Assembly: GCA_903944085.1 (NCBI GenBank)
Contig: CAJAQO010000123.1
Coordinates: 1-35,855, forward strand
Direction: 5' to 3'
Length of the DNA: 35,855 nt
Source of the DNA: an uncultured Verrucomicrobia subdivision 3 bacterium
GTDB taxonomy: Bacteria; Verrucomicrobiota; Verrucomicrobiia; Limisphaerales; UBA11358
Shown: positions 12,577-30,871 of the stretch, piece after piece
How the letters are laid out: every line of letters begins with the position of its first letter
Position numbering within the stretch: position 1 is the stretch's first letter
Translations under genes and position numbers: made by a program
The notes under the pieces: generated by a model
Database searches by the model: none
Seen by the model: the letters and a program-made list of their open reading frames with translations, nothing else
Told to the model about the DNA's origin: nothing

Positions 12577-13128
12577 ATGACGAAAACACAAATGACAGCA
12601 ACCGTTGGCTCAACCACCACGGACCACGCCGGTCTGCGGCCGGCTGCGTTTCCTGCGGGTGAGCATTTCCGCTGTTTTCTCCCGGCAGTTTTTCTGGCCG
12701 GCATTGTATTTTTATCCGGCTGCCAGACCGCCACTCAAAGTTTGTTCACCGCCGCCGGTCCTGACTGGCACGTCCAGCAGGGCCAGGCGCTCTGGCGACC
12801 GCAGCGCGGCCTGCCGGAATTTGGCGGCGATCTCGTGCTCGCACGCGACGATGCCGGGCGTTGCCTAATTCAGTTCGATAAAACGCCGCTGGCCATTTTG
12901 TCCGCACAGATTACGACGAATCAATGGCTCATAAAATTTCCGCAGCGCAATTACAGTTTCAGCGGACACGGTTCGGGCTCGACGCGTTTTAGCTGGCTGT
13001 ATTTGCCATTGGCTCTCGACGGCAAACCATTGCCGAAACAATTGCATTTTGAAAACAAACCGGACGGCGGCTGGCGCTTGGAAAATTCGCGCACCGGCGA
13101 AACTGTGGAAGGATTTTTGTCGCCGTGA
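12577..13128 (+). CDS. LolB-like/DUF3261-like outer-membrane lipoprotein (candidate)
   Basis: The protein has a lipoprotein signal: a long N-region, a hydrophobic stretch (FLPAVFLAGIVFLSG) and a lipobox LSGC. The mature part is about 140 residues of mainly beta character and ends GWRLENSRTGETVEGFLSP, like the closing strands of LolA/LolB-fold proteins. No catalytic motif is seen. I chose the ATG at 12577; ATG at 12592 is equally possible. The stop overlaps the GTG start of the exporter (GTGA), so the two are translationally coupled. In aryl-polyene clusters a DUF3261 lipoprotein accompanies the MMPL exporter and LolA, so a role in receiving lipid at the outer membrane is inferred. The lipoprotein call is firm; the LolB likeness is tentative. 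Confidence 0.65.
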   Translation: MTKTQMTATVGSTTTDHAGLRPAAFPAGEHFRCFLPAVFLAGIVFLSGCQTATQSLFTAAGPDWHVQQGQALWRPQRGLPEFGGDLVLARDDAGRCLIQFDKTPLAILSAQITTNQWLIKFPQRNYSFSGHGSGSTRFSWLYLPLALDGKPLPKQLHFENKPDGGWRLENSRTGETVEGFLSP

Positions 13129-15584
13129 GTCCTTTCTTGAAACGCTGGTGGTGGGCTTTGCTCGTCGTGGCAATCGGCCTCGGACTGGCGCGGCTGCGCT
13201 TTGACGTGGACATTCTCGACCTGCTGCCGCCGGATGAACCATCCGTCCAAGGATTAAAACTTTACCAGCAACATTTCACAAACGCCCGCGAACTCATCGT
13301 CGCACTTCGCGCGCCAGATTCTGACACGGCAGAACGGCTCGCCGGCGAACTCGCGCTGCGGTTGCGGCAGGAAACCAATTTGGTTTCCGAAGTGACTTGG
13401 CAGGCACCGTGGATGGAAAAACCCGAGCAGCTCGGCGAGTTACTCGGCTGGTTGTGGTTCAACCAGCCGCCAAATGATTTTGCCGCGCTCACCAATCATC
13501 TCGCGCCCGACCAGCTCAAGCCGCAGTTGGATGAGACCCGCGAACTCCTCGCCAACTCGATGTCGCCGATGGATCTCGCGCGGCGCTCGTTTGATCCGTT
13601 CAACCTGCTGACCATGCCCGCGCTGACCAACCTCAGCGGCATGAACATGGATCAGGGCAATCAGATGTTCGCCTCCAACGACGGAAAATTTCGACTGCTG
13701 TATTTGCAATCTGCCGTGGATTTGGCCAGCTACCGCGACTGCGAAAATTGGTTGCAACAAATTCACGCCGTCGTTGCGGAATTGCAAAGTGGAAATTCAA
13801 AAGACGATTGGAAAAATGTCACGGTGCATTACACCGGTCGTCCGGTTTTCGTGGAAGAAATCGCCACCTCGATGCAACGCGACATGAGCCATTCCGTCGG
13901 TGGCACCGCCACGGTCATCGCCATTTTATTCTGGCTCATGCATCGCCGCTGGAAACCAATGCTGTGGCTGCTCGCGTTGCTGGGTTTGATTTTATTTGCA
14001 ACGCTCGCGCTCGGCGCGCTGGTGCTCGGCACGATCAGCGTCGTCGCGCTCGGTTTTGCCGCCGTGCTGCTCGGCCTGGCCGTAGATTATGCCGTCGTGC
14101 ATTATCAGGAGGCGCTGTCGCATCCGCAAATGACCGTGCCGGAAATCCGCCGCGCCATCGCGCCGAGCATTTTGTGGGCGGCCATCACCACGATGTGTGC
14201 GTTCTTGGTTTTGAACCTCGGCGGTCTGCCCGGTCTCGGCCAGCTTGGCTCGCTCGTGGCCATCGGCATCGGCGTGTCGGCGCTCGTGATGGTGATGATT
14301 TATCTGCCGCCGCTTTTTCCCGAACGTCGTCAGCCGCGTCCGAATCAAGCGCCTTTCCGCTGGTGGAATTATTTCGTCGCGCCGCAGGAACCTGTCGCCG
14401 TCGAAATTTCCACCGCCGGGAATTCTTCTCATCGCGCCGCGTTTCTCGTGACCGGCTTGATTTTTCTTGGCGCGTGCATCGTTTTGTTTTTTCGACAACC
14501 AGGTTTGGATCACACCGGCAACGCCTTGCAGCCAGTGCACGGCGAGGCGCAAACGACGCTCGACGAAATGACCGCGCAACTCGGGCTGCCGCCGCAGCCG
14601 CTCTGGTTGATCGTTCCCGGTCGCGACGAAGCAGAAGTTTTTCAGCGTCTTACCAACGCCGAAGTCTTGCTGAACGGCGCGGTGAGCAATCGTCTCATCG
14701 AAAAATTTCTGCTGCCCGACACGCTCTGGCCGCGCGCCGAATTTCAATCCGCCAATCGCGCCACTGCCGCGGCGCTCGGCGAAAAAGGCCCGCTGCTGCG
14801 AGCGGCCTTGGTTGACGCAGGTTTTAATACGAACGCCTTCGTTCTGACTGCGGAACTCGTGCGCACTTGGGCGGGTGCCGGTGAAAGCAAATCGGTGATG
14901 TGGCCGACGAATCAAGTCAGCCAGTGGTTGCTGAAACGTTTCGTCGCGCGCACTGCTGACGAATGTCTCGTGATGGGTTTGATTTATCCGGCGACGAACC
15001 AAGTGGACGCGGCGGAATTGTCCGCGCTATCGAAAAATCTAGCGCAAAACCACGCGCTGCTTTCCGGCTGGGAATTGCTCGGCAGCGCCACGCTCAAACG
15101 CGTGCAGTCCCGCATGTGGCAGGTCATCACACCGATGGTCGTGCTCGTGCTACTCTCGCTGTGGTTCGCGTTTCGTCGCGCGCTGGAAATTTTGCTCGGC
15201 CTGACCGTCTTGTGTTTGAGCGGAATTATTTTGCTTGCCACGATGGCACTGGCTGGCTGGAACTGGAATTTGATGAACCTCATGGCGCTCCCGCTGATGC
15301 TGGGCACCGGCGTGGACTACACAATCTTTATCCAACTCGCGCTGCGTCGGCACGGCGGCGATCTCGTCGCCGTGCGTCGGTCCGTTGGTCGCGCCTTGAT
15401 GCTCTGCGGTGCCACCGCCGTGGCCGGGTTTGGTTCACTCGCCGGTTCCAGCAATCTCGGCATGGCCAGCCTTGGCAAAGTCTGCGCCGTCGGCATCGGC
15501 ACCAACATGCTCATCTCGGTTTTTCTGCTGCCGGCTTGGTGGCGATTCTTCAGTCCAAAGCCTAAAGTCCAAAGTCCAAAGTAA
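13125..15584 (+). CDS. MMPL/RND-family exporter
   Basis: The 819-residue inner-membrane protein has the two-fold RND/MMPL layout. There is a TM helix near residues 5-22, a large periplasmic loop (~25-250), five TM helices (~255-400), a second TM plus periplasmic loop (~440-660) and five final helices. Asp-Tyr pairs in the fourth helix of each half (LAVDYAVVHY, D321; GTGVDYTIFI, D731) are the proton-relay positions of this superfamily. It begins with GTG overlapping the lipoprotein stop. Related exporters of this length sit in aryl-polyene, flexirubin and xanthomonadin clusters, where they are thought to move lipid-linked products out of the inner membrane. Its extreme C-terminus (SPKPKVQSPK) is encoded by a short tandem repeat and may be a recent extension. 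Confidence 0.88.
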   Translation: MSPFLKRWWWALLVVAIGLGLARLRFDVDILDLLPPDEPSVQGLKLYQQHFTNARELIVALRAPDSDTAERLAGELALRLRQETNLVSEVTWQAPWMEKPEQLGELLGWLWFNQPPNDFAALTNHLAPDQLKPQLDETRELLANSMSPMDLARRSFDPFNLLTMPALTNLSGMNMDQGNQMFASNDGKFRLLYLQSAVDLASYRDCENWLQQIHAVVAELQSGNSKDDWKNVTVHYTGRPVFVEEIATSMQRDMSHSVGGTATVIAILFWLMHRRWKPMLWLLALLGLILFATLALGALVLGTISVVALGFAAVLLGLAVDYAVVHYQEALSHPQMTVPEIRRAIAPSILWAAITTMCAFLVLNLGGLPGLGQLGSLVAIGIGVSALVMVMIYLPPLFPERRQPRPNQAPFRWWNYFVAPQEPVAVEISTAGNSSHRAAFLVTGLIFLGACIVLFFRQPGLDHTGNALQPVHGEAQTTLDEMTAQLGLPPQPLWLIVPGRDEAEVFQRLTNAEVLLNGAVSNRLIEKFLLPDTLWPRAEFQSANRATAAALGEKGPLLRAALVDAGFNTNAFVLTAELVRTWAGAGESKSVMWPTNQVSQWLLKRFVARTADECLVMGLIYPATNQVDAAELSALSKNLAQNHALLSGWELLGSATLKRVQSRMWQVITPMVVLVLLSLWFAFRRALEILLGLTVLCLSGIILLATMALAGWNWNLMNLMALPLMLGTGVDYTIFIQLALRRHGGDLVAVRRSVGRALMLCGATAVAGFGSLAGSSNLGMASLGKVCAVGIGTNMLISVFLLPAWWRFFSPKPKVQSPK
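15552..15581 (+). repeat. AGTCCAAAG short repeat at the exporter 3' end
   Basis: AGTCCAAAG occurs at 15552-15560, 15566-15574 and 15573-15581, forming an AAAGTCC heptamer run right before the stop codon. It encodes the tail PKVQSPK. Confidence 0.7.
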
Positions 15585-15593
15585 ATTTCCGCG

Positions 15594-16502
15594 ATGGACG
15601 CGAACGAACAACCTGCCCGTGCAAAACAGCCCGCCTTTTATCGCGGCGGCATGTGGCGCTGCGGAGTGTCGCTCGCGCGGATGTTGCCAGCAGGTTTGGT
15701 AAAAGGCATCGCCCGGTTGCTCGCCGGTTTATATTGGTGCCTCCAGCGTCAGCGCTGCGAAGTCGTTGTGCAAAATTTTCTCCCGGTTTTTTCCGGCGAT
15801 CAATGCGCCGCGGAAAAAGCCGCGCGCACCGCGCACAAAAATTTCGCCGCCAAGCTCATTGATTTGTGGTGTGTCGAAAGCGGCGAAGTCACGCGCAACT
15901 GGCTGACCACCGACGGCGAACTTGAAATCATCCACGCCGCGCGGCGACGCGGTCACGGCACGCTCTTCATCACGCTGCACCTCGGCAATTGGGAACACGG
16001 CGGCATGTTGCTCACGCAACTCGGCATCCGGCTGACCATTCTCACGCAGGCCGAGCCTGACGACGGACTCACCGACCTGCGCAAGGCTGCACGCGCCCGC
16101 TACGGCGTGGACACGCTGATCATCGGCGACGATGGTTTCGCGTTTGTGGAAGTCATCAAACAACTTCAGGCCGGCGCGGATCTGGCGATTTCACTGGATC
16201 GGCCGCCCGATCGCGGCGGTGTGCCGGTGGAATTTTTCGGACACAATTTTGAGGCGTCGCTCGCCGCCGCAGAATTAGCTCGCGCGTCCGGCTGCGCGCT
16301 GATCGGCGTGACGATCGTTCGCCGCCCTGATGGTTACGCGGTGAAGGTGTTGCCGGAATTTATTTACGACCGGAAAAATTTGGGCAGCCGCGAGGCGCGT
16401 CGCGACCTCACGCAGCAAATCCTGCGTGCATTCGAGCCCGAAATTCGCAAGGATATTGAGCAATGGTATCAATTCACGCCCATCTGGCCGCGGAAAAAAT
16501 GA
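15594..16502 (+). CDS. LpxL/HtrB-like acyltransferase
   Basis: The 302-residue protein belongs to the lipid A acyltransferase (LpxL/LpxM) superfamily. The catalytic HX4E motif is intact in LHLGNWEHGG (H129, E134). The C-terminus has the usual DIEQWYQFTPIWPRKK. The family transfers acyl groups from ACP to a lipid hydroxyl at the inner face of the inner membrane; an N-terminal hydrophobic region (~residues 30-50) would anchor it. The gene starts 10 bp after the exporter stop and its stop overlaps the next start (ATGA at 16499-16502). Such acyltransferases are standard members of aryl-polyene/flexirubin clusters, so it probably acylates the cluster product or joins it to a lipid, rather than being the housekeeping lipid A enzyme. 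Confidence 0.85.
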   Translation: MDANEQPARAKQPAFYRGGMWRCGVSLARMLPAGLVKGIARLLAGLYWCLQRQRCEVVVQNFLPVFSGDQCAAEKAARTAHKNFAAKLIDLWCVESGEVTRNWLTTDGELEIIHAARRRGHGTLFITLHLGNWEHGGMLLTQLGIRLTILTQAEPDDGLTDLRKAARARYGVDTLIIGDDGFAFVEVIKQLQAGADLAISLDRPPDRGGVPVEFFGHNFEASLAAAELARASGCALIGVTIVRRPDGYAVKVLPEFIYDRKNLGSREARRDLTQQILRAFEPEIRKDIEQWYQFTPIWPRKK

Positions 16503-17215
16503 GGAAGAATTTTTATAAGGAAACCAAGAAGCCAGGAACTCCCAAAAAAGCTTCCTGGTTTCCCGGTTTCCTTATTTTGGTTTTACTGGCTGCCGGACTG
16601 CGCGCCGCCGATTACGACGCGCAATTTAACAAATGGTTTGAAGTGCAAACCAATTTGCAAAGCTGGACCGGCGATTTTACGCAGACGCGGACGCTCACGG
16701 TTTTGAATCAGCCGCTGATTTCGCATGGCAAAGTCTGGGTCAAGCCGGGTGAATTCCGCTGGGAACTTGGCCAGCCGGCACAAACCATCGTGTTGCGGAC
16801 ACCAGCACAATTACTCATCGTTTATCCCCGGCTCAAGCGCGCGGAGAAATATCCGCTCGACGCTGTGCCGACCGGTCCGATGAAAGACGCGCTGTCCCTG
16901 CTTGATGCCAGCCTCCCGCGCGATCGCGCGACGATGGAAAAAAGTTTTGCGTTATTGTCGGCCATGGAAACCAACTCCATTTTGCAAATGACGCTGCAAC
17001 CGCGCAGCGAGGCCGCGCGCAAATTCATCGGACAAATCGTGATCGGTTTTCACACCAATGATTTCACCATCGCCGTCACGGAAATGAAATTCGCCGACGG
17101 CTCCAAGCTGCACAACGATTTTACCAATGTCGTGCTAAACGCGCCGATTGAAGCAAAAATGTTCGAGTCGCATTTGCCGGCGGATTACACCATTTCCGAA
17201 CCGTTGAAAAAATGA
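16499..17215 (+). CDS. LolA-like periplasmic lipoprotein/lipid carrier
   Basis: The 238-residue product has a signal peptide (hydrophobic FPGFLILVLLAAGLRA, cut before ADYDAQF) after an unusually long basic N-region. The mature part shows the LolA pattern: WTGDFTQTRTL, then GKVWVKPGEFRWELGQP, then TIVLRTPAQLLIVYPRLKRA. LolA carries lipoproteins across the periplasm; homologues in aryl-polyene-type clusters are thought to carry the lipid product. The ATG at 16499 overlaps the acyltransferase stop, which decides the start. The stop overlaps the dehydratase ATG. Codons ~6-26 lie inside a long inverted repeat, so the N-region may have been reshaped by a small palindromic element. Confidence 0.85.
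   Translation: MRKNFYKETKKPGTPKKASWFPGFLILVLLAAGLRAADYDAQFNKWFEVQTNLQSWTGDFTQTRTLTVLNQPLISHGKVWVKPGEFRWELGQPAQTIVLRTPAQLLIVYPRLKRAEKYPLDAVPTGPMKDALSLLDASLPRDRATMEKSFALLSAMETNSILQMTLQPRSEAARKFIGQIVIGFHTNDFTIAVTEMKFADGSKLHNDFTNVVLNAPIEAKMFESHLPADYTISEPLKK
16515..16575. repeat. Palindromic element inside the lolA-like signal-peptide region
   Basis: The outer arms are perfect: ATAAGGAAACC (16515-16525) with GGTTTCCTTAT (16565-16575). The inner arms are CCAGGAA (16532-16538) with TTCCTGG (16552-16558), and the loop is 13 bp. It lies wholly within coding sequence. The RNA would form a strong hairpin shortly after the start codon and could lower translation of this gene relative to its operon neighbours. 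Confidence 0.75.
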
Positions 17216-17667
17216 GCGCCTCGCCGGAAATTTTGCAGCTCGCCATGCGCTCGCTGCCGCACGGGCCGGAATTTCGGTTTGTGGACCGGATGATCAGTCT
17301 CACGCCGGGCAAGGAAGGCGTGGGCGAATATCACGTGCGCGGTGACGAATATTTTCTGCGCGGCCATTTGCCGGACGAGCCGATCATGCCGGGCGTGCTG
17401 ATGACGGAAGCGGCGGCGCAGGTGGCCGGCATGGTGGCGCAGGAAGATCCCGCGAATCCGCGCTGGCCGCGCCTGAAACTGACGGCGTTGCGCGCGGTGA
17501 AAATTCTCGGCGCCGTGCGCCCCGGCAACACGCTGCGCATCGAAGCCGTGATCACGGGCATCTTGGGCGACATGATTCAGGCGCGGGTTTTCGCATCCGT
17601 GGCCGGCGAAAAAGTATTGTCGGCGGAAATCACCTTGAGCGGTTCTGCTCCGGCAAAAAGCACATGA
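17212..17667 (+). CDS. FabZ-like 3-hydroxyacyl-ACP dehydratase
   Basis: The 151-residue single hot-dog protein has the FabZ active site: His in RGHLPDEPIMPGV (H52) and Glu in LMTEAAAQVAG (E66). It also has the substrate-tunnel strand FRFVDRMISL. FabZ enzymes dehydrate (3R)-hydroxyacyl-ACP to trans-2-enoyl-ACP. Start and stop both overlap neighbours (ATGA at 17212-17215 and 17664-17667), so it is translated as part of the cluster and is unlikely to be the housekeeping fabZ. In aryl-polyene clusters such dehydratases build the conjugated chain. No ketosynthase or ketoreductase is present here, so it must borrow these from elsewhere. Confidence 0.9.
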   Translation: MSASPEILQLAMRSLPHGPEFRFVDRMISLTPGKEGVGEYHVRGDEYFLRGHLPDEPIMPGVLMTEAAAQVAGMVAQEDPANPRWPRLKLTALRAVKILGAVRPGNTLRIEAVITGILGDMIQARVFASVAGEKVLSAEITLSGSAPAKST

Positions 17668-18398
17668 CGGCATCGGCGGAAAAATCAGTGCGCCCATTTT
17701 GTTTCGAGCGCGACACCTTTGCTTTCGCGCACGAGCTGGTTTGGAAATATCATTTCGATCCGATCACCGGCGCGATGACCACTTGCAAAACCGAGCCGCC
17801 GCCGGCCTATTATCATCGCTGCTTCGTCTTGGTGCGCGCGACGCGATTGTTTTTCGACTATGCCTGCTTCGCGCCAGAGCTGCCACCGGCGGCGGCGGCG
17901 AACTATCAACAACTTGTCCGCAAAATCATTTCTTCCAACCCGCGCCGAACATGCGCTAATTCGGAACGATTTGTGATTCCCGGTTTCGACGGCTTGCGTT
18001 CGTTCAGCCGCGCGCACGAGCCACTACTCAAAGCGGAATGCGGCGCGGCGTGGGAATCCTATTTTTTGCGCAGCCATTGGCGCATGATTTTCAAGGTCTA
18101 TGGCCGGTTTCAGGAAAAGATGGCGGAGAAATTAAAACGTTCGTTGCAAAAGCGCGGCGTATCGCTCGTGCATCTGTTTCGTTTCCCGCGCATCACCATC
18201 AATCACGGCATCGTGCTGTATGGTTTCACCGAATCAGATTCGCAAATTGAATTCGAAGCCTACGACCCGAATCTTCCCGAACATCCGGTGAAACTGATTT
18301 ACGAAAAACAACAGCGCGTGTTTACCTTTGCGCCGAGCATTTATTGGGGCGGCGGCGTGTTGAGCGTGATGGAAATTTTTTGCGACTGGCCTTATTGA
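17664..18398 (+). CDS. Unknown cluster protein, possible papain-like fold (BtrH-like?)
   Basis: The 244-residue soluble protein begins with ATG overlapping the dehydratase stop. Near the C-terminus a His in TINHGIVLYGF and an Asp in EAYDPNLPEH are spaced like the His/Asp of papain-like cysteine enzymes, including C39-like peptidases and the butirosin acyltransferase BtrH. Cys in YYHRCFVLVRATRLFF is a candidate nucleophile. If so, it could transfer an acyl or aminoacyl group from the ACP encoded just downstream. Other conserved-looking stretches are KAECGAAWESYF and HWRMIFKVYGRF. The fold suggestion rests only on motif spacing. It is the last gene of the first coupled operon. Confidence 0.6.
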   Translation: MTASAEKSVRPFCFERDTFAFAHELVWKYHFDPITGAMTTCKTEPPPAYYHRCFVLVRATRLFFDYACFAPELPPAAAANYQQLVRKIISSNPRRTCANSERFVIPGFDGLRSFSRAHEPLLKAECGAAWESYFLRSHWRMIFKVYGRFQEKMAEKLKRSLQKRGVSLVHLFRFPRITINHGIVLYGFTESDSQIEFEAYDPNLPEHPVKLIYEKQQRVFTFAPSIYWGGGVLSVMEIFCDWPY

Positions 18399-18399
18399 T

Positions 18400-18756
18400 T
18401 TACGATTTGCGTTTGCGCGGTTGCCAAAAGGCCACGCCAAAGAAAAACGTGCCACAGCCGTTCAGCCCTAAAATGTAGCCGATTTTATAGCCACGGCCCA
18501 CGTTGTTCGGCGCATAAATCGGCACATCTTTTCCGCCGAGCAAACCCGGCAGTGCGGCGGGCATGAGCGCGCCTTCCAGCAAACCGGTATAAAATCCCGC
18601 AACGTAATCGGGCTGGTAATAACGCGGTGCCGCCCAACCTTGGGCAAAAATCAGCGTCAGACTGATCGCGGTCAACGCAATGAACTTTATGATGATTACC
18701 TTCGCGGGGGAAAGGCCGGCGGCTGCGGCGGCTGGTGCCTGATTGGATTCTGCCAT
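18400..18756 (-). CDS. Small membrane protein of unknown function
   Basis: The 118-residue protein has a hydrophobic N-terminal helix (VIIIKFIALTAISLTLIFA), a central Gly-rich segment (AGFYTGLLEGALMPAALPGLLGG) and a C-terminal helix (GYILGLNGCGTFFFGVAFW) before a basic tail. The ATG at 18756 is chosen over a longer upstream start because it begins a normal protein start. It lies opposite to the cluster, with its stop 2 bp after that of the preceding gene. No family was recognised. It may be a passenger or an accessory membrane component of the cluster. Confidence 0.6.
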   Translation of the reverse strand: MAESNQAPAAAAAGLSPAKVIIIKFIALTAISLTLIFAQGWAAPRYYQPDYVAGFYTGLLEGALMPAALPGLLGGKDVPIYAPNNVGRGYKIGYILGLNGCGTFFFGVAFWQPRKRKS

Positions 18757-18857
18757 CCGGCAAAGGATGTTCCGGTGCCGGCGGCCGGGCAAGCAGATAA
18801 TGCCGCACGTCTCCATGCTTGACGCCGTTTCGAGCCACTTCATACTTGGGCGAATTA

Positions 18858-19133
18858 ATGATTCCTGAAACGGATCCCAAGATTATCGCCGCGAAACTTT
18901 GCGAGTTTGCGCGGACCAACTTTGTCGCCGAGGGCGTGCAATTTGACGAACACAGCCCGTTGTCCGAGGCGGGCATTGATTCCTTTGCGCTCGTGGAACT
19001 GGTGCTTTTTTGCGAGCGCGTGCTCGGCGTCCGCGTGCCGGATTCCCATTTGACGCCTGCGAATCTGGCTTCAATGTCGTCGCTGGCCAAGTGCATTTCT
19101 GAACTCGCGCGGACGGGGCAGTCTTCCGTTTAA
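18858..19133 (+). CDS. Acyl carrier protein
   Basis: The 91-residue protein is a typical four-helix ACP. The 4'-phosphopantetheine attachment Ser is in GIDSFALVEL (S42), followed by the helix II/III pattern LFCERVLGVRVPDSHLTPAN. The ATG at 18858 gives a normal-length ACP; an upstream ATG at 18819 would add 13 residues without similarity. It opens the second cluster operon, 17 bp before the condensation-like gene. It probably carries the acyl chain handled by the dehydratase, the acyltransferases and the AMP ligase. Confidence 0.9.
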   Translation: MIPETDPKIIAAKLCEFARTNFVAEGVQFDEHSPLSEAGIDSFALVELVLFCERVLGVRVPDSHLTPANLASMSSLAKCISELARTGQSSV

Positions 19134-19150
19134 AATTTTCGGCAGCGATT

Positions 19151-20488: not shown

Positions 20489-20499
20489 ACTGATTTTGC

Positions 20500-21783: not shown

Positions 21784-21791
21784 CTTTTGAA

Positions 21792-21871
21792 ACCGCCGAG
21801 GCGCCAAGACGCGGAGAAAATTCCAGAACCGTCCACTAAAATTTTCCTCTGCGTCTTTGCGTCTCTGCGGT
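21792..21871. repeat. REP-like palindromic element
   Basis: The left arm 21792-21816 (ACCGCCGAGGCGCCAAGACG..) is the imperfect complement of the right arm 21847-21871 (..GCGTCTTTGCGTCTCTGCGGT). There are 21 matches in 25, with the pairing continuing as AAAATT/AATTTT at the inner ends. It lies in the gap before the AMP-ligase gene and looks like a dispersed non-autonomous palindrome rather than a gene-specific operator. Confidence 0.7.
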
Positions 21872-21882
21872 AAATTTTTTCG

Positions 21883-23316: not shown

Positions 23317-23344
23317 AGCGGAAAACGACCAGCCTGACAGCCAA

Positions 23345-24883
23345 TTATTTAGCGGGATACCGCCAAACCCAGTCACCTTTTTCGCGGTCAACCTGGCCGC
23401 TTTTGTTGAACAGGGTTTGTCCGCCATCGTCCTGCTCATTCCAGCCCACGGAGTAAAGAATAAATTGTCCGGCTTCCGTGCGGCGATAATGCAAGGGCTG
23501 GCCGTTGATCACGTCGTGCGGCACTTGGGCGATGAATTGCGGCGCCAGCAGGTCGAGCGTTTCCGGATAATTTCCATGCGCCAGCCGGAAGCGTTCGAGG
23601 GCGCACGCCACGCGCGCCAAATCCACGCTGACCTGGGCGAAGGCGAATTTTGCCACGGCTCGGCTGATGGCCGGAAAAGACATCCCGGCTTCAATCTTAT
23701 AAGGTGAATAATGCTTCAATTCGGCAGCCACAGCGGTATTGGCTTGCCGCACGGCGGCGGGCGAAACCAGCCGATTTGTCACTTCCACCAGCGGTCGGAG
23801 AAATTGCTCATTCAGCCGCGCGCAGGCGAGTTCGTTTTGATAAAAGAAGGCGGCCGGCATGAACCGGAGACTGATCGTCACCGCCTTGGTTTTGCCGGCT
23901 TCCGCCACCGTGGTTTCGTATTTGCGGGTGAGCCTTTGATTTTCCAGCGTGTCCGTCGCAAACACCATTTCGCCGCGCATGGCCAGTTGGTAGTCGGCCA
24001 GAAAATCCCGTTGCGCGAGTGCCTGTTCGAGTTCGGCAAGCTGCGCGTCGGTCCACCGGTGTTGCGCGAGGCCCTCGTAAATCGGCAAGAGCGTGTAGGG
24101 CGTGATGGCCATGCTGACAAGATGTGTGATGAGCAAAGGTTCCTGCCGCAAGGCGTCGCCGAGGCGCAGCAGGAGCCGGACATCTTCGAGGGCGGCGGCG
24201 GATTGGTTATCGCCCAATTCCGCGATGGCCCGCAAATTGAGAACCTGCGTGCACTGTTTGAACTTTGCGAGATACGCCAGCAGCGACGAGAATTCCTTCG
24301 CATCGCCGGCCGAATAATCGCCCAGCCAGGCATAAGGCCGGCGGCTCGCGGCACGCAATTCCTCGATGGCCGCACCGTATTTGCTCAATGCCAGCAAAAC
24401 ATCGGCCGCCGGCGATTGCGCCTGCGCCGCGACCGGAAATTCGCCTGCGCCGTTGGTCGCGGAGTTGCGGTAATAATCCTGCCAGTTTTTTAAATTGGTC
24501 AAACGCGCGCGTTCCCAAGACGCCCCGGTTTGGTCGGGAACGTCGCTGGCATCTCGGCGATACGGCGACATGCTAAGCCGGTCAACGAGATGCGTGGTTG
24601 GTTTCCAAGCCAGTGTTTGGTCGTCCCATTCCGCCGCCGTCGCGCCGGAAAAAATCGGAGCCTTGATAAAATTCTGATCGTCCGGCACGGGATTGGTCGG
24701 GGCGAATGCCGACCAGTCAAAGCGCTCGCCGCGCGCTTCGGCTGCGTGCTTGTAATTTTCCCAGGCGCGTTTTCCGCGCCAGTTTTCTTCGGTGATCAAA
24801 ACGGCGGCCAAAGTGATGAGGCCTGCCAGGCTGATCAATCCCCAGCGGAGCAGCCGCCAGCGCCAGCTGGTTTTCGCATTCAT
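23345..24883 (-). CDS. Membrane-anchored hypothetical protein (third gene of ECF sigma operon)
   Basis: The 512-residue protein has one N-terminal TM helix (LISLAGLITLAAVLIT) and a large, probably periplasmic, helical body. The C-terminal ~80 residues (RLAHGNYPETLDLLAPQFIA, then DVINGQPLHYRR, then FILYSVGWNEQDDGG) resemble the tail of type II secretion pseudopilins and related Verrucomicrobiota/Planctomycetota surface proteins. It follows the small membrane protein by 3 bp and shares its operon. No catalytic motif is evident. A sensing or cell-surface role linked to the sigma factor is an inference. Confidence 0.7.
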   Translation of the reverse strand: MNAKTSWRWRLLRWGLISLAGLITLAAVLITEENWRGKRAWENYKHAAEARGERFDWSAFAPTNPVPDDQNFIKAPIFSGATAAEWDDQTLAWKPTTHLVDRLSMSPYRRDASDVPDQTGASWERARLTNLKNWQDYYRNSATNGAGEFPVAAQAQSPAADVLLALSKYGAAIEELRAASRRPYAWLGDYSAGDAKEFSSLLAYLAKFKQCTQVLNLRAIAELGDNQSAAALEDVRLLLRLGDALRQEPLLITHLVSMAITPYTLLPIYEGLAQHRWTDAQLAELEQALAQRDFLADYQLAMRGEMVFATDTLENQRLTRKYETTVAEAGKTKAVTISLRFMPAAFFYQNELACARLNEQFLRPLVEVTNRLVSPAAVRQANTAVAAELKHYSPYKIEAGMSFPAISRAVAKFAFAQVSVDLARVACALERFRLAHGNYPETLDLLAPQFIAQVPHDVINGQPLHYRRTEAGQFILYSVGWNEQDDGGQTLFNKSGQVDREKGDWVWRYPAK

Positions 24884-24886
24884 AAT

Positions 24887-25327
24887 TCAGATGACGGCGG
24901 TTTCGGTGATTTCACTGCGCGGTTTGGGCGCGGCATTTCGCGGCTGGTCGGCTTCACCAGGCAAAGCATGATCGGCCAGCAACTCGTTCAACAATTTCTC
25001 CTGGCTGAAATATGCGAGCCGCATCGCCAACGCCGGCGAGTGCTTGGCGCTGGCGACGGTGGCTGGTTCACGCTCCGCGACGTTGACGAGCAGCAGCATG
25101 ATCCAGACCGCCGCCAGTCCGGTCCAAATCCGGCGACACGGCCAAATAAGTTCCAGCCAAATCCGGTCGAAAAAGTCCGGCCACCACGCCGCCGGGCCAG
25201 TTGCCAAACTTTGGGCCTTGGTGGCTTGATGGTTGCACGCGGTCGCCACGACTTCCCGGCGGATGGCGTCCAGTTTCGGCCGGACGGTTTGGTGGCGGGC
25301 GAGCAGAATATCGCGCGGGATGTTCAT
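24887..25327 (-). CDS. Small single-TM protein, candidate anti-sigma factor
   Basis: The 146-residue protein has a cytosolic N-terminal part (~80 residues), one TM helix (IWTGLAAVWIMLLLVNVA) and a short external tail. Its ATG overlaps the sigma-factor stop (25324-25327), a coupling typical of ECF sigma/anti-sigma pairs. The N-terminus lacks an obvious HxxxCxxC zinc anti-sigma motif, so the anti-sigma role is inferred only from topology and position. Confidence 0.6.
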   Translation of the reverse strand: MNIPRDILLARHQTVRPKLDAIRREVVATACNHQATKAQSLATGPAAWWPDFFDRIWLELIWPCRRIWTGLAAVWIMLLLVNVAEREPATVASAKHSPALAMRLAYFSQEKLLNELLADHALPGEADQPRNAAPKPRSEITETAVI

Positions 25328-25869
25328 GGTGCTTTCTCCAATAAATGTCGCAGGGATTTCTTGGCGTAGTGCAGCCGTGATTTCACGGTGCCAAGCGGTG
25401 TTTCCGTGATGCGGGAAATTTCTTCGAGCGAAAAATCTTCAATAAAATGCAGCAGCAAAACGTCCCGCTGTGACAGCGGCAGTTGGTTTAGCAAATTCAT
25501 AAATTCAGTTTCGCGTTCGCGGCGGATGAGTAGATCGTCGGGGCCGTCCTCAAATTCATCCGGCGCGTCGGGAATTTCGTCGAACAGAATTTCTTTCCGC
25601 TGGCGCCAGCGCTGGACACATTTTTGGTGGGCGATCCCAAACAGCCAGCTTCCAAATTTCCTGTCCTCGCGCAGTCCGGCGATATGCCGGGCGGCGGCGA
25701 TGAAAGTTTCCTGCACGATGTCGAGGCCAGCCTGTTCGTCGCGGACCAGTTCAAAAACGTAAACATAAAGCGGCAGTTGATAGCGCCGGAAGAGCGCGTC
25801 CCACGCCGCCGGCTCCCCGGCGCGGGCCTGCGGCACGGGCAGTTGTTCGATGGCGGCCACTTCCGGCAT
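25324..25869 (-). CDS. ECF-type RNA polymerase sigma factor
   Basis: The 181-residue protein has sigma region 2 (PLYVYVFELVRDEQAGLDIVQ, ETFIAAARHI, SWLFGIAHQKCVQRWRQRK). It also has region 4 with a helix-turn-helix (LPLSQRDVLLLHFIEDFSLE, EISRITETPLGTVKSRLHYA). It lacks regions 1 and 3, as ECF factors do. The ATG at 25869 is preferred because it gives a normal N-terminus; a longer in-frame start at 25959 exists. It is divergent from the type III polyketide synthase gene across about 155 bp, so it could control that operon as well as its own. The target promoter motif cannot be read from a single copy. Confidence 0.92.
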   Translation of the reverse strand: MPEVAAIEQLPVPQARAGEPAAWDALFRRYQLPLYVYVFELVRDEQAGLDIVQETFIAAARHIAGLREDRKFGSWLFGIAHQKCVQRWRQRKEILFDEIPDAPDEFEDGPDDLLIRRERETEFMNLLNQLPLSQRDVLLLHFIEDFSLEEISRITETPLGTVKSRLHYAKKSLRHLLEKAP

Positions 25870-25993
25870 TTTCACCAAGAGGAATGGGCGAAGCGAGCAA
25901 AGGTTCAAAGCAACGGCAAAAATTATCGGCAAACCGTCATTCGCAGGTTCGCGCCTCAAGGTGGTTCAGCGTGAATTCGCCGCAATGGCTGGC

Positions 25994-26012
25994 GTGTGCG
26001 TCCGCCGCACAC
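25994..26012. promoter_or_regulatory. Inverted repeat in the polyketide synthase leader
   Basis: GTGTGCG (25994-26000) and CGCACAC (26006-26012) are perfect 7-bp arms around 5 bp. They are followed directly by TATATT (26013-26018) and, 6 bp later, the ATG at 26025. It is a candidate operator or attenuator hairpin. If TATATT is a -10 box, the transcript would be nearly leaderless. Confidence 0.4.
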
Positions 26013-26024
26013 TATATTTCGCCC

Positions 26025-27080
26025 ATGTTTATCATCGGAACCGGCACGGCCACGCCGTCGCACCGTTATACCCAGCAGGATTGTTGGACGGCGTTGAAAA
26101 ATTCCGCCCGGTTTCAGGACCTAAATTTGCGCTCACGGGCCATTTTAAAAAAAGTGCTGACCGGTGAAAACGGCATTGCCGCGCGCCACCTCGCGCTCGA
26201 CCAATTGGATAACGCCTTCGATCTCACGCCGGACGCGTTGTCGGCGCGCTTCGTGGAAAATGCGCCAGCGCTCGCCGCGCTGGCGGCGGAGCGCGCGCTC
26301 GCCGCTGCGAAAACGAGTCCGCGCGAAATTGACGCCATTCTCATCAGCACCTGCACCGGTTATTTGTGTCCCGGCCTGACGAGTTACACCAGCGAGCGGC
26401 TGGGCCTGCGGCCGGACGTGCTGGCGCTCGATTTGGTGGGGCAGGGCTGCGGCGCGGCGCTGCCGAATTTGCAGACGGCGCAGGCGCTGGTGGTGTCCGG
26501 CAATTGCGCGCGCGTGCTGTCCATCTGCGTCGAGGTGTGCAGCGCTGCTTTTTATCTCGACGATGACGCCGGCGTTCTGATCAGCGCTTGTCTGTTCGGC
26601 GACGGTGCGGGCGCGGCGGTGCTCTCGCCGACCCCCGGCGCTGGCCGGCGGATAAAATGGAAGAGCAGCGGCTCGCTCCTGAAGCCGGCTGACCGCTATC
26701 GGTTGCGGTTCGAGCAGAAAAATGGAATGCTCCGCAACATTCTTACGTCGGACGTGCCGGTGCTGGCCGCGCAACATTGCGCAACCGTTTTTGCCGACAC
26801 GCTGGCCCGCGCGGGAGCGGCGCGCGCGCAGATCAACGGCTGGATACTGCATCCGGGCGGACGCGACGTGCTGGCGGCCCTGCGCGAAAAATTCCAGTTG
26901 TCCAACGACGACGTGCGCCGGAGCGAATCCGTGCTGCGCGAACACGGCAACATGAGCAGCCCCTCCGTTCTGTTTGTTTTGCAAGCGGCGCTCGCGGAGA
27001 ATGCGCCGGGCGGGCTGTGGTGGATGTCGTCATTTGGTGCCGGCTTTAGCTGCCACGGCGCGCTGCTCGAAGTGGAATAA
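26025..27080 (+). CDS. Type III polyketide synthase (chalcone/stilbene synthase family)
   Basis: The 351-residue enzyme has the full Cys-His-Asn triad of type III PKSs: C142 in LVGQGCGAALP, H276 in GWILHPGGRDVL and N309 in EHGNMSSPSVLFVL. The thiolase-fold landmarks STCTGYLCPGLTSY and a C-terminal SFGAGFSCHGALLE loop are also present. These homodimers extend an acyl starter with malonyl units and cyclise to pyrones or resorcinols; bacterial members with these neighbours use long acyl starters. The ATG at 26025 gives the usual MFIIGTGTATP start; a longer frame upstream has no similarity. It is followed after 14 bp by a methyltransferase and then an FAD protein, the srsA-srsB-srsC order. The product is probably a phenolic lipid. 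Confidence 0.93.
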   Translation: MFIIGTGTATPSHRYTQQDCWTALKNSARFQDLNLRSRAILKKVLTGENGIAARHLALDQLDNAFDLTPDALSARFVENAPALAALAAERALAAAKTSPREIDAILISTCTGYLCPGLTSYTSERLGLRPDVLALDLVGQGCGAALPNLQTAQALVVSGNCARVLSICVEVCSAAFYLDDDAGVLISACLFGDGAGAAVLSPTPGAGRRIKWKSSGSLLKPADRYRLRFEQKNGMLRNILTSDVPVLAAQHCATVFADTLARAGAARAQINGWILHPGGRDVLAALREKFQLSNDDVRRSESVLREHGNMSSPSVLFVLQAALAENAPGGLWWMSSFGAGFSCHGALLEVE

Positions 27081-27094
27081 AAAATTACTCATTC

Positions 27095-27790
27095 ATGGAA
27101 CGAATTGTCCTTCCCGAATTGCTGGATGTCTTGCCGCCGCAGGACCAATCCGCCTTGCGGTCGCGGCGCGACCTCCGCCGGCTCAACGCCTGGATGCGGC
27201 ATCCGCGCATCATGGCTCGGCTCCTGCAAACGTATTTGGCGGATGCAGATGCCCGGCATATTGTCGAGTTGGGCGCGGGCGACGGACATTTTTTGTTTAG
27301 CGTCGCCAAGCGTTTGCGCGGCCAATGGTCCGGCGCCAAGGCGAGTTTGGTGGATCAATTGAACGCGCTTGATCCGCAACTGGCCGGAGCTTTCAAACAT
27401 CTTGGCTGGGAGGTTCGCGCGGAAGTCGCCGAGGCTTCCGCCTGGCTGCGGCAGACATCACCCATGGCGACCGATGCCGTCATCAGCAATTTATTTTTCC
27501 ACCAGTTTGAAACCGAGGCGCTCGCCGAAATGCTCCGGCTGACGGCGCGTTCGGCGCGCGTGGTCATCGCGCTCGAACCGCGCCGCACTTGGCTGCCACG
27601 GATTTGCGGGCGGCTGCTGTGGGTGATTGGCTGCGGCCCGGTCACCTGCCATGACGGTCACATTAGCGTCCGCGCCGGATTTGCCGGCCGCGAACTGTCG
27701 GCGCTTTGGCCCGACCAGCAAAATTGGGAACTGGTTGAACGTCCCGTCGGTTTGTTCAGCCACCTGTTCGTCGCGCGGCGGAAGGAGTAA
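27095..27790 (+). CDS. Class I SAM-dependent methyltransferase (SrsB-like position)
   Basis: The 231-residue Rossmann methyltransferase has motif I (HIVELGAGDGHFLF). An acidic residue in SLVDQLNAL is a candidate for binding the SAM ribose, and SNLFFHQFETEAL is a likely motif IV. It is soluble, unlike the membrane isoprenylcysteine-type BpsB of Bacillus. By position it matches SrsB of Streptomyces, which methylates an alkylresorcinol. Its stop (TAA 27788-27790) follows directly on the Shine-Dalgarno sequence of the next gene. Substrate assignment is inferred from context only. Confidence 0.85.
   Translation: MERIVLPELLDVLPPQDQSALRSRRDLRRLNAWMRHPRIMARLLQTYLADADARHIVELGAGDGHFLFSVAKRLRGQWSGAKASLVDQLNALDPQLAGAFKHLGWEVRAEVAEASAWLRQTSPMATDAVISNLFFHQFETEALAEMLRLTARSARVVIALEPRRTWLPRICGRLLWVIGCGPVTCHDGHISVRAGFAGRELSALWPDQQNWELVERPVGLFSHLFVARRKE
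27782..27787 (+). promoter_or_regulatory. Shine-Dalgarno sequence of the FAD monooxygenase gene
   Basis: AAGGAG lies 7 bp before the ATG at 27795. It is one of the few strong ribosome-binding sites in the window, and it fixes the start of the next gene against a longer upstream frame. Confidence 0.75.
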
Positions 27791-27794
27791 AAAC

Positions 27795-28844
27795 ATGCCG
27801 CCGTGCCAACCCATCACAATCATCGGCGGCGGGCTGGCAGGTCTGACTTTGGGCATCAGCTTGCGGCAGCGCGAAGTGCCGGTGAAAATTTTTGAAGCCG
27901 GCAGCTATCCGCGCCACCGCGTCTGCGGCGAATTCATCAGCGGTCACGGTCGGTCGGTGCTCGCCCAGCTTGGTTTGCTCACGCACTTGGAACAGGCCGG
28001 GGCCGTTGCCGCCCGCACGGTTCTGTTTGTCTGCGGCTCAAACCGGTCGCCGATTCGTGAACTGGCCACGCCGGCGCTGTGTTTGGCGCGTCATGCGTTG
28101 GACGCACTGCTGGCCGAATTTTTTCAACGGCTCGGCGGCGAACTGCTGATGAATTCGCGCTGGACTGCGCGCGAATCCCGCGCCGGCGTCGTTCTTGCCG
28201 TCGGCCGGCGCCCGCCAACCGCCGAACAGAATCCGCGCTGGTTTGGCCTGAAGGCGCATGTCGCGCGGTCCCATTCCGTGAAGCTGGAAGCGGATTTGGA
28301 AATGCACCTTTCACCAAATGGCTATATTGGTATTAACCGCATCGGCGGCGGCGAAGTCAATGTATGCGGACTTTTTCGCGCCGGCGAAAACCAGCGCCTG
28401 CCGGAATCAAAACAAGATTGGTTGCGCGGCGAACCCGGCTCCCTGTTACGGGAGCGATTGCAGGCGGCGGAATTTGCGACGGATTCGTTTTGCGCCGTGG
28501 CCGGGCTGCAGCTAAAACCGCAGCGGGCGGCGGCAAAAAAAGAGTGTTGCGTTGGGGATGCCTTGACGATGACGCCGCCGATCACGGGCAACGGCATGTC
28601 CATGGCCTTCGAGTCCGCTGCGCTGGCCGTCGGACCATTGGCCGATTACAGCCGCGGCCGGTTGAACTGGTCACAAGCGCAGCGGCAGATTGCCCAGAAC
28701 TGCGATACGGCGTTTGCGCGGCGGCTGGCTTGGGCGCGAGGTTTGCAGTGGATGATGCTTTCGCCCATGCTGCAAGGCCAGCTAGGAGCTTGGTTGCTGC
28801 GCTCCGACTGGCTCTGGCGGTTGATGTTCTCGCAGACGAGGTAA
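27795..28844 (+). CDS. FAD-dependent monooxygenase/geranylgeranyl-reductase-family protein (SrsC-like position)
   Basis: The 349-residue flavoprotein has an N-terminal FAD fold (TIIGGGLAGLTLGISLRQ, EAGSYPRHRVCGEFISG). Its C-terminal binding motif is VGDALTMTPPITGNGMSMAF. This combination is found in geranylgeranyl-reductase-type and aromatic hydroxylase flavoproteins. In the Streptomyces srs operon the third gene is a flavoprotein hydroxylase that turns methylated alkylresorcinols into hydroquinones and quinones; the same role is inferred here. The start is fixed by the Shine-Dalgarno sequence 7 bp upstream. A 140-bp gap with a palindrome separates it from the next gene. Confidence 0.85.
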   Translation: MPPCQPITIIGGGLAGLTLGISLRQREVPVKIFEAGSYPRHRVCGEFISGHGRSVLAQLGLLTHLEQAGAVAARTVLFVCGSNRSPIRELATPALCLARHALDALLAEFFQRLGGELLMNSRWTARESRAGVVLAVGRRPPTAEQNPRWFGLKAHVARSHSVKLEADLEMHLSPNGYIGINRIGGGEVNVCGLFRAGENQRLPESKQDWLRGEPGSLLRERLQAAEFATDSFCAVAGLQLKPQRAAAKKECCVGDALTMTPPITGNGMSMAFESAALAVGPLADYSRGRLNWSQAQRQIAQNCDTAFARRLAWARGLQWMMLSPMLQGQLGAWLLRSDWLWRLMFSQTR

Positions 28845-28965
28845 GGTTTACGCCTCGTTGCAGGAAGCGATGACGACGGGTGTTGCCGCCACGCGTGCCT
28901 GAAAAAGTTTTTCAAAACCGGTAGTTTGCTTTGAGATCGGGCTTGCAACTGCAACAAATGATGGC

Positions 28966-28981
28966 TTATTACCAGTAATAA
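28966..28981. promoter_or_regulatory. Palindrome TTATTACCAGTAATAA before the AMP-ligase-like gene
   Basis: Perfect 7-bp arms flank a 2-bp centre, ending 3 bp before the ATG at 28985. The position over the ribosome-binding region suggests an operator or translational control site. It is AT-rich, unlike its surroundings. Confidence 0.45.
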
Positions 28982-28984
28982 CAG

Positions 28985-30262
28985 ATGCTTTACGAACGCT
29001 GGCAGAAAGTAGTTCAGGAACGACAAAATGAAATTGCCATGCGCGATTTGGCTTCCGGACAGAGTTGGACGTTTGCGCAACTGCACGACGAAGGTGAAAA
29101 ACCGTTGCCGCAAACGCCGGCGATGATCCAGCCGCAGGGCAATTCCCCCGAATTCATCATCACCGTTTTGCGCGCCTGGCGTGCGCGCATCGTGGTGTGT
29201 CCGCTCGAGGCGCATCATCAATCGCTGGCGGCTTTGCCGCCGCGGCTGCCCGGCTGCCATCTCAAAACCACGCCGGCCAGCACGGGGGTTCCGCGCGCTG
29301 TCTGCTTCACGCCGGAGCAATTGGCCGCCGACGCGGAGAACATCGTGGCGACGATGGGACTGCGGCCCGACTGGCCCAATCTCGGCGTGATTTCACTGGC
29401 CTATTCCTACGGATTTTCAAGCCTCGTGCTGCCGTTGCTGCTTCATGGCATTCCGCTGTTCCTCGTGCCGTCGCCGCTGCCGGTGGCATTGCGCTGCGCG
29501 GCGCATGCGCACTGGAATCTCACTGTTGCCGCGGTTCCGGCGCTGTGGCACGCATGGCATAAAGCCGGCGCGATTCTGAGCAACGTGCGGCTCGCCATTT
29601 CTGCCGGCGCGCCGCTGCCGCTCACTTTGGAGCGCGCTGTTTTCGCGGATCATGGCGTGAAGATTCATAATTTTTACGGCTCCACCGAATGTGGCGGCAT
29701 CGCCTACGACGCGAGCCCGACGCCGCGCGAAAATGAATCCTTCGTCGGCCGGCCGCTGAAAAATGTGTCGGTGGAAATCGGCGGAAATGGCGCGCTGCTG
29801 GTGCGCAGCCGCGCGGTCGGTGAAACGTATTGGCCGGCACCGGAGCCGGCCTTGGCGGGCGGCGTTTTCCACACTTGCGATCTCGCGGAAATCAAGGCTG
29901 GTGAAATCTTTCTGCATGGCCGCACCGACGACCACATCAACGTCGCCGGCCGCAAAGTGTCGCCGACCATGATCGAACAGGCCTTGCGCGAGCACGCCGC
30001 CGTCGCCGAATGCGTCGTCTTCGGCGTGCCCAGCGGCAGTGCGGACCGGATGGATTTGATTGTGGCCTGCGTCGCGGTGGATCGGCCCAGCACCAAGGAG
30101 GAACTGAAACAGTTTTTGCTCCAGAAGCTGCCGGGCTGGCAGGTGCCGCGCGAATGGTGGTTTATCACCTCGATCAGCAGCAACGGCACCGGCAACCCTT
30201 CACGCGCCAAATGGCGGCGGGACTTTCTCGAGAATCGCGCAAAACCTGGCGTGGCGGTTTAG
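28985..30262 (+). CDS. Acyl-AMP ligase homologue with degenerate catalytic motifs
   Basis: The 425-residue ANL-fold protein keeps A5 (NFYGSTECGGIAY) and A8 (HGRTDDHINVAGRKVSPTMIE). The P-loop is eroded to TTPASTGVPRAV (~95-106), lacking the usual SGTTGxPK glycine and lysine. The A10 position, normally a catalytic Lys in a GK pair, is Asn (SSNGTGNPSRAKW, N404). It is also short for the family. It may therefore be a poor adenylation enzyme, a thioester-forming or binding protein, or a regulator. It closes the type III PKS operon, so it presumably handles the acyl starter or the product. ANL family membership is firm; activity is doubtful. Confidence 0.85.
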   Translation: MLYERWQKVVQERQNEIAMRDLASGQSWTFAQLHDEGEKPLPQTPAMIQPQGNSPEFIITVLRAWRARIVVCPLEAHHQSLAALPPRLPGCHLKTTPASTGVPRAVCFTPEQLAADAENIVATMGLRPDWPNLGVISLAYSYGFSSLVLPLLLHGIPLFLVPSPLPVALRCAAHAHWNLTVAAVPALWHAWHKAGAILSNVRLAISAGAPLPLTLERAVFADHGVKIHNFYGSTECGGIAYDASPTPRENESFVGRPLKNVSVEIGGNGALLVRSRAVGETYWPAPEPALAGGVFHTCDLAEIKAGEIFLHGRTDDHINVAGRKVSPTMIEQALREHAAVAECVVFGVPSGSADRMDLIVACVAVDRPSTKEELKQFLLQKLPGWQVPREWWFITSISSNGTGNPSRAKWRRDFLENRAKPGVAV

Positions 30263-30798: not shown

Positions 30799-30871
30799 GC
30801 GCGAGTTTAACCGCCAAGCCGAGGGAAACGCCAAGAAAATTTTCAGTGCATCGCGCAAAAAATCCGCCATC

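Follow-up and report, generated by a model that had tools for sequence, protein, structure and literature searches.

A type III polyketide synthase operon beside the probable export half of a split polyene-lipid-like gene system in a Verrucomicrobia subdivision 3 bacterium

Contig C123 from the draft genome of an uncultured Verrucomicrobia subdivision 3 bacterium (G000; 5.79 Mb, 335 contigs, 95.9% complete, 4.67% estimated contamination), analysed here over its whole length (the window; positions 1-35855, 35,855 bp), carries a block of export and acyl-transfer genes (12577-23316), followed by a type III polyketide synthase (T3PKS) with a methyltransferase (MT) and an FAD-dependent oxidoreductase (the trio, 26025-28844) and by a second AMP ligase (ligase 2). 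The locus raises the question of whether these genes form one cluster, and where the acyl chains handled by such a cluster would be made. An earlier note on this DNA had described a union of the two gene sets without any ketosynthase (KS) as the unusual part of the locus. The likely answer is that 12577-23316 and ligase 2 together represent one half, responsible for acyl transfer and export, of an aryl-polyene- or ladderane-like type II system, the chain-building half of which is encoded on another contig of this genome, C185, and that the trio is an ordinary neighbouring operon. The comparison covered 146 related genomes, G000 counted among them, with gene architecture inspected in detail on the fetched stretches.

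A genome-wide search recovered two PF00109-type KS genes in G000, and none in the window. On C185 a FabF-like KS, a KS-like partner, a ketoreductase (KR) and a CrtI-like flavoprotein follow one another in this order, flanked by a second acyl carrier protein (ACP), GT2, a halogenase/monooxygenase-like flavoprotein and a phosphodiesterase-like gene. The KS keeps its Cys, His and His motifs; the partner, which matched no Pfam or NCBIfam family, has VGDP at the site of the Cys motif, and by its position and KS-like sequence without the Cys it corresponds to a chain-length factor (CLF). In six KS-CLF pairs compared by pattern, the KS Cys motif was present in all six and HGTGT in five, with VGD-P/S in four of the six partners and not found by that pattern in the other two. 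The CrtI-like flavoprotein scored 134.7 and 119.7 bits against the carotenoid isomerase and CrtI families, both under the cut-offs. The C185 KS is 87% identical to the KS of both G010 and G002, and the window MMPL exporter is 85% identical to its counterparts in the same two genomes. At the level of the genome the cluster is thus not ketosynthase-free, and a KS-less look can arise when a cluster is split over two genome places. Repeat proteins (WG-repeat-like by eye) recur beside the KS and GT2 genes (L135 12060-13532, L131 7475-8404, L087 8657-9673).

The two halves co-occur among the relatives. With KS and MMPL counted at E≤1e-80 and ligase 2 at E≤1e-60, KS was found in 64, MMPL in 66 and ligase 2 in 57 of the 146 genomes, G000 being included in the latter two counts. 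Of these genomes, 58 have KS together with MMPL and 14 have only one of the two (odds ratio, OR, 89), and the ORs for co-presence are 116 for MMPL with ligase 2 and 67 for KS with ligase 2 (n=146 throughout), values that describe rather than test the association because the genomes share ancestry. Within 25 kb of each other lie KS and ligase 2 in 17 of the 52 genomes that have both, MMPL and ligase 2 in 19 of 54, and KS and MMPL in 10 of 58; these counts, like those for the T3PKS below, are lower bounds because the drafts are fragmented, and they were made apart from G264, which was new in an order-wide search of 320 genomes, and from G155, G156 and G266, which were new in a further search. 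In both G015 and G025 a single contig carries KS, GT2, a C185-type flavoprotein and ligase 2 in this order, and ligase 1 lies further on in convergent orientation. Because of this order and the linkage counts, ligase 2 belongs with the KS/export system and not with the trio, to which the earlier note had assigned it. Ligase 2 and ligase 1 are convergent in G002 and G058 too, unlike in the window. Ligase 2 (also at L130 and L142-L161) is short and its P-loop, TTPASTGVPRA in the window, is divergent, although the gene is retained in the 57 genomes counted above; the protein may not be a normal ligase.

The trio, judged from its sequence, is a separate and common alkylresorcinol-type operon found mostly away from the module. 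T3PKS genes were counted at a best E of ~1e-98 or better and at one place per genome, leaving out G113 (47%, one in-frame stop), fragments in G064, G027 and G046, second copies (including G000:C313, 50%) and weaker matches near 30% identity, so that all T3PKS counts hold among the matches listed; at least 71 of the 146 genomes, G000 included, carry an orthologue. The triad C142, H276 and N309 is invariant in all 38 distinct sequences (own included), and the top NCBIfam model is DpgA at 155 bits, under its cut-off of 425. Homologues of the MT and the flavoprotein follow the T3PKS in 18 of 20 fetched T3PKS stretches, the exceptions being the paralogue on C313 and G002. Streptomyces srsABC likewise combines a T3PKS with MT and FAD-dependent oxidoreductase genes, and the srsABC-like trio that the earlier note described is present, with weak profile support for the MT (Pfam 19.7 bits, cut-off 27; NCBIfam PRK06202 39.9 bits, cut-off 243). 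The paralogue in G000 (G000:C313:18154-19182, L050) is 50% identical and has no MT or FAD homologues nearby; a 49% copy exists in G058. In G002 (L033 4429-5187) a UbiE/COQ5-like methyltransferase (131 bits) follows the T3PKS instead of the PRK06202-like MT and the flavoprotein.

Close linkage of the T3PKS to the module is rare. Among the 38 genomes that have both a T3PKS and ligase 2, three (G000, G010, G002) carry the two no more than 25 kb apart; at the same limit the T3PKS is near KS in 1 of 43 genomes with both (G058), near MMPL in 3 of 45 (G000, G002 and, at 18 kb, G056) and near the condensation-type gene in 2 of 11. Four genomes (G000, G002, G010, G058) have a module gene within 5 kb of the T3PKS. 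Trio and module lie on different contigs even in well-assembled genomes, such as G001 (T3PKS on C17; KS, ligase 2 and MMPL on C2) and G070 (C17 and C15). The lack of co-occurrence in relatives that the earlier note had named as an objection is thus found in part, since most relatives do not carry the blocks as a single unit. Nevertheless, the neighbourhood is not pure accident, because the trio stands beside module genes also in G058, G010 and, as T3PKS only, in G002: the union with an aryl-polyene-like export and acyl-transfer module that the earlier note saw is real but rare, and in the window it is rearranged.

Trees were built from fetched loci and comprised 38 distinct T3PKS and 37 distinct MT sequences, from the at least 71 T3PKS genomes. 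The four linked T3PKSs fall into one clade (100/94) together with that of G020, which is unlinked on its 24-kb contig, and the same genomes (G010, G002, G058, G020) hold the sequences closest to that of the window in the order-wide search, where 11 of 320 genomes had a T3PKS at E≤1e-155. The linked MTs of G000, G010 and G058 form a clade (100/96) with an orphan copy of G031, a relic which adjoins ligase 2 and is distinct from the MT of G031's own trio. In G058, a member of another family, the trio lies between a C185-type flavoprotein and the contig end, with KS 4 kb away; a different contig holds the export module, and ligase 2 starts there at 111 bases from the contig end. Compared with G058 and G002, the trio and ligase 2 of the window are inverted relative to ligase 1 and stand apart from the KS part. 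Our reading of these sequences is that one cassette would have entered the cluster once, been kept in G010, G058, the window and, as T3PKS only, G002, left G020 and been reduced in G031, with two insertions as the alternative. For the order of the rearrangements we infer that the trio came between the KS part and ligase 2 in one cluster lineage, and that in the window it was inverted and parted from the KS part. The GC content of 26025-30262 (0.621, as compared with 0.585 in the first block and 0.607 to the right) says little in this respect. A search for trio relics in the G015 interval that separates the flavoprotein from ligase 2 gave only matches of E 0.014 and worse; at the site of the G058 trio, G015 has a flavoprotein-like open reading frame (ORF) that is aromatic-hydroxylase-like by eye (L152 ~7700-9260).

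The acyl-transfer half contains a free-standing condensation-type protein that matched no Pfam or NCBIfam family, so that the condensation-like acyltransferase named in the earlier note stands by its predicted fold and HxxxD motif and not by profile. Its predicted structure (pLDDT 64.5, moderate) matches the fold of nonribosomal peptide synthetase condensation domains, PapA5 and wax synthase (Foldseek E 1.2e-14), with a VIA Z of 23.0 to 8s6l (root-mean-square deviation, rmsd, 3.8; 388 aligned) and of 20.9 to PapA5 1q9j (rmsd 3.8; 337 aligned), and H142 and D146 are invariant in 13 of 13 sequences. The superfamily includes the ester-forming enzymes PapA5, wax synthase and SgcC5. Matches to this gene at 19 named loci come from drafts labelled Limisphaerales, Verrucomicrobia subdivision 3, Verrucomicrobia/Verrucomicrobiia/Verrucomicrobiota, "bacterium" (two) and Opitutaceae (once). 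Counted at ~60% identity or more, it occurs in 14 genomes (13 relatives and G000) of the 22 with any match, eight at 23-28% being left out. Distant sets of condensation-type, FAD_oxidored and AMP ligase genes, 23-43% identical, were found in G004, G021, G037, G053 and G065, with an ACP match also in G004 and G021 and KS genes on the same contig in G021 and G037. As a marker of T3PKS linkage the condensation-type gene was rejected, since the T3PKS lies beside module genes in only 4 of the 14 carriers (own included). Less can be said of the conserved 244-aa protein, the gene for which (17664-18398) the earlier note left unnamed: C53, H181, D201 and N203 are invariant in 15 of 15 sequences, and its model possibly has a papain-like (clan CA) fold, the similarity to papain-like folds being weak (best VIA Z 7.5, rmsd 4.2, 139 aligned; best Foldseek E 0.015, with nothing at E≤0.001). 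CtaG with p-hydroxybenzoate, considered as a Foldseek relative, was too weak at E 0.057 and was not used. Searches of PDB sequences with profiles of the condensation-type and 244-aa proteins gave nothing at E≤1.

In 11 of the 14 carriers a B12-radical S-adenosylmethionine (SAM) gene lies between the condensation-type and FAD_oxidored genes, and it is absent there in the window, G014 and G040. The top NCBIfam model for the G058 protein is the ladderane-associated TIGR04072 (329 bits, cut-off 360); 28 of the 146 genomes match this model at E≤1e-50, 13 of them over the cut-off, and those of the condensation module are all under it. In G000 no TIGR04072 match was found at E≤1e-50, and a search with the G058 protein gave a 29% partial match only. 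Gain of the T3PKS does not explain this loss, as G002, G010 and G058 carry both. In other relatives (L146, L148 and L149) two radical SAM genes lie near ligase 2, with a BioB/HydE-like gene by eye (L146, L148) and KS alongside (L146, L149), a make-up that, from the sequence, is more ladderane-like.

For comparison with aryl-polyene clusters the gene list apeA-R of E. coli CFT073 was used (PMC8253772). Such clusters share with the system described here KS and CLF, KR, dehydratase, ACPs, an ACP-loading AMP ligase, an acyltransferase or glycosyltransferase, LolA, an RND/MMPL exporter and a lipoprotein. In G000 the set is split over two contigs, with KS, CLF, KR and the second ACP on C185, and FabZ, ACP, two predicted ligases, LolA, MMPL and a lipoprotein of no matched family in the window; the condensation-fold enzyme, FAD_oxidored, the CrtI-like flavoprotein, the 244-aa protein and the second AMP ligase are additional. 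Ladderane-type clusters of type II fatty acid synthesis genes are described for anammox bacteria and Desulfotalea in PMC2649909, which also states that polyunsaturated hydrocarbons and not ladderanes were found in Desulfotalea with its similar cluster, and two further papers note "ladderane" clusters in Verrucomicrobia (PMC7298704) and low-similarity "ladderane" cluster calls in Ca. Udaeobacter (PMC7343977). The shared features here are a FabF-like KS whose partner has no active-site Cys, a CrtI-like flavoprotein beside these FabF paralogues, KR, FabZ and ACPs, and TIGR04072 in 28 of the 146 relatives; G000 differs in having no TIGR04072 match and in the added export and condensation genes. 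Given the Desulfotalea result, polyenes are the cautious guess for the product, most of all in G000, where the radical SAM gene is missing.

The trio resembles, in gene content, the alkylresorcinol operons reported in PMC10896814, namely planctomycete MT-oxidoreductase-T3PKS operons and cyanobacterial hidABC, with the order here being T3PKS-MT-FAD. According to the same paper, planctomycete T3PKSs made alkylresorcinols on expression, and MT and oxidoreductase from one operon introduced one methyl group, probably at a carbon (PMC10896814). By analogy, the window trio most likely makes alkylresorcinol-type products. Polyene systems accompanied by resorcinol- or T3PKS-type genes have a counterpart in the Bacteroidota flexirubin clusters and a "T3pks-arylpolyene" cluster named in Aequorivita (PMC6139392); the window LolA is closest to LolA2_flexi, but at 57.7 bits stays under the cut-off of 125, and the T3PKS link is rare here. 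In Oceaniferula, as reported in PMC9865893, aryl polyene and type III PKS are separate clusters in one verrucomicrobial genome. A literature search, made mostly without full texts, found no paper joining a T3PKS with such a cluster in Verrucomicrobiota. The parts are known, and their combination is a rare local variant.

Taken as an aryl-polyene- or ladderane-like system split over two contigs, the genes suggest a route in which the AMP ligases would load acids on ACPs, KS-CLF, KR and FabZ would extend them to an unsaturated (polyene) chain, with no enoyl reductase seen in the cluster, and the flavoproteins would modify this chain; the condensation-fold and LpxL-type enzymes would then transfer it to a hydroxyl or amine acceptor and a lipid anchor, and MMPL, LolA and the lipoprotein would carry the product to the outer membrane. 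Several observations weigh against this reading or its details. The joint work of the two halves can only be inferred, because they lie on different contigs of a draft with 4.67% estimated contamination. Composition (GC 0.587 on C185 and 0.584 in the window, tetranucleotide r 0.984) hardly excludes contamination, because a G021 stretch reaches r 0.969; C185 is judged unlikely to be a contaminant in view of its identities to G010 and G002, which agree with those of the window. The C185 KS is FabF-like and was not matched to an aryl-polyene-specific model, and the thioesterase ApeK, the second KS ApeR and the COG4648 protein ApeG were not recognised among those genes of the C185 stretch and the window that were profiled, which do not include every ORF. 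The join of C49 and C52 in G058 is deduced from contig ends. On the T3PKS tree two changes are required to explain the linked label, and a single change was seen in none of the bootstrap trees, so that the tree does not force the reading of one insertion plus one loss, which is one among others. Lastly, co-presence of the T3PKS with KS, MMPL and ligase 2 is weaker than among the module genes but not nil (OR 3.9, 4.5 and 3.4; nominal p 1e-4, 3e-5 and 7e-4), which may be due to shared ancestry.

The alternatives differ in what the trio would contribute. That the trio and the module act independently of each other and lie together without functional meaning, which is compatible with the preferred explanation, seems to us an evenly balanced proposition: the usual separation, also in the well-assembled G001 and G070, and the unconserved orientation speak for it, and against it speak the related cassettes that G000, G002, G010 and G058, from two families, have kept next to the module, together with the nominal co-occurrence at the genome level. 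Rather improbable, in our judgement, is a true hybrid in which the methylated or hydroxylated resorcinol of the trio would be esterified by the condensation-fold enzyme to the polyene acid of the KS-CLF pair and exported to the outer membrane as a flexirubin-like ester. It could draw on the position of the trio, which is 4 kb from KS in G058 and adjoins ligase 2 both in the window and in G010 (in G002 the T3PKS does so), on related cassettes in two families and the MT relic in G031, on the ester-forming members of the condensation-fold superfamily, and on the weak LolA2_flexi match and the nominal co-occurrence. However, close linkage is confined to 4 of the 146 genomes, 10 of the 14 condensation-gene carriers have no T3PKS found beside module genes, at least 28 of the 82 genomes without KS have a T3PKS, and in G002 a UbiE-like gene stands where other genomes have MT and FAD. 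An evolutionary version of the hybrid, which we regard as slightly less probable still, is that one Limisphaerales-type clade recruited the T3PKS cassette into a KS-CLF polyene-lipid cluster, the condensation-fold enzyme joining resorcinol and polyene acid into an outer-membrane ester that is flexirubin-like without DarAB (Dar genes were not searched for), with sister lineages holding a ladderane-related radical-SAM/CrtI-like branch. A flexirubin-like resorcinol-polyene ester is accordingly a possible but unproven product. The KS-free cluster of the earlier note, with the T3PKS fed acyl chains by the ACP/ligase module, is highly improbable: no KS lies in the 35.9-kb contig, and two AMP ligases with an ACP could supply acyl starters, but a KS-CLF-KR set exists in the same genome and lies near module genes in relatives. 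The KS-containing aryl-polyene cluster elsewhere in the genome that had been named as the objection to such a union is thereby found in part, with the KS set on C185 and, in relatives, near export genes or ligase 2. With the split system as the preferred reading, a conserved polyene-lipid-like system is described for this order, and sister lineages with TIGR04072 and KS-CLF (and the CrtI-like flavoprotein where seen) offer a comparison set for how ladderane-type clusters work; should the T3PKS cassette really feed the polyene lipid in G058-like strains, resorcinol-polyene esters could be made in a second way.

Table 1. Genes of the export and acyl-transfer block, the interposed block, the trio and ligase 2 in the window.
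Feature	Position	Strand	Basis or remark
Lipoprotein-like, ApeN position	12577..13128	+	Lipobox LSGC; kept directly upstream of MMPL in relatives
MMPL/RND-type exporter (ApeM/HpnN-like)	13125..15584	+	Pfam MMPL 87.6 bits, cut-off 20.5
LpxL-type acyltransferase	15594..16502	+	Pfam Lip_A_acyltrans 72.9 bits; HxxxxE
LolA-like periplasmic carrier	16496..17215	+	Pfam LolA 53.1 bits
FabZ-like 3-hydroxyacyl-ACP dehydratase	17212..17667	+	Pfam FabA 67.1 bits
Conserved 244-aa protein	17664..18398	+	Beside ligase 2 or FabZ in relatives
Small protein	18400..18843	-	Adjoins 244-aa gene on opposite strand, also in relatives
Acyl carrier protein	18858..19133	+	Pfam PP-binding 26.4 bits; GIDS
Free-standing condensation-fold acyltransferase	19151..20488	+	Predicted fold; HxxxD
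FAD_oxidored flavoprotein	20500..21783	+	Pfam PF12831, 266.6 bits
AMP ligase 1	21883..23316	+	Pfam 203.9 bits; P-loop TSGTTGAAKG
Interposed block: T2SSG-like, anti-sigma-like, ECF sigma-70 genes	23345..25959	-	Sigma by profile
Type III polyketide synthase	26025..27080	+	Chal_sti_synt N 50.1, C 50.9, FAE1 52.8 bits
SAM methyltransferase of trio	27095..27790	+	Position conserved; weak profiles
FAD-dependent oxidoreductase of trio	27792..28844	+	FAD_binding_3 28.3 bits, cut-off 22; position conserved
AMP ligase 2	28985..30262	+	Profile 77.8 bits; short, divergent P-loop

Most single genes named in the earlier note were confirmed by profile searches and motifs, namely the ACP, the FabZ-like and LpxL-type enzymes, the FAD oxidoreductase, LolA, MMPL, the T3PKS, the FAD protein and the AMP ligase, of which there are two and not one (Table 1). 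The LolB-like lipoprotein has the lipobox, but the profile search matched no Pfam or NCBIfam family, which leaves DUF3261/LolB-like naming without family support. The top NCBIfam model for the MMPL protein is HpnN (164.9 bits, under the cut-off of 751.85), and the small protein encoded within the first block has a weak LptF_LptG match (18.6 bits, under the cut-off). The picture of three co-directional operons holds for the existence of the genes and blocks; a minus-strand block lies between them and a minus-strand gene inside the first, and the co-directional order is not conserved (G002, G058). Intergenic gaps in the first block are of -7 to 17 bases, as in operons, except upstream of the ACP (~456) and of ligase 1 (99). 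In the interposed block the T2SSG match is weak (14.4 bits) and the anti-sigma gene is named from its position only. T2SSG-like and anti-sigma-like genes 41% identical to those of the block lie near the T3PKS in G103 (L036 7581-9660), the T3PKS of which is sister to the linked T3PKS clade (94/88). Downstream, at 30683-33804, the window carries a UroD/MtaA-like and a TolQ/ExbB-like gene, recognised by profiles, and ExbD- and TonB-like ORFs, recognised by eye, all of which look unrelated to the system.

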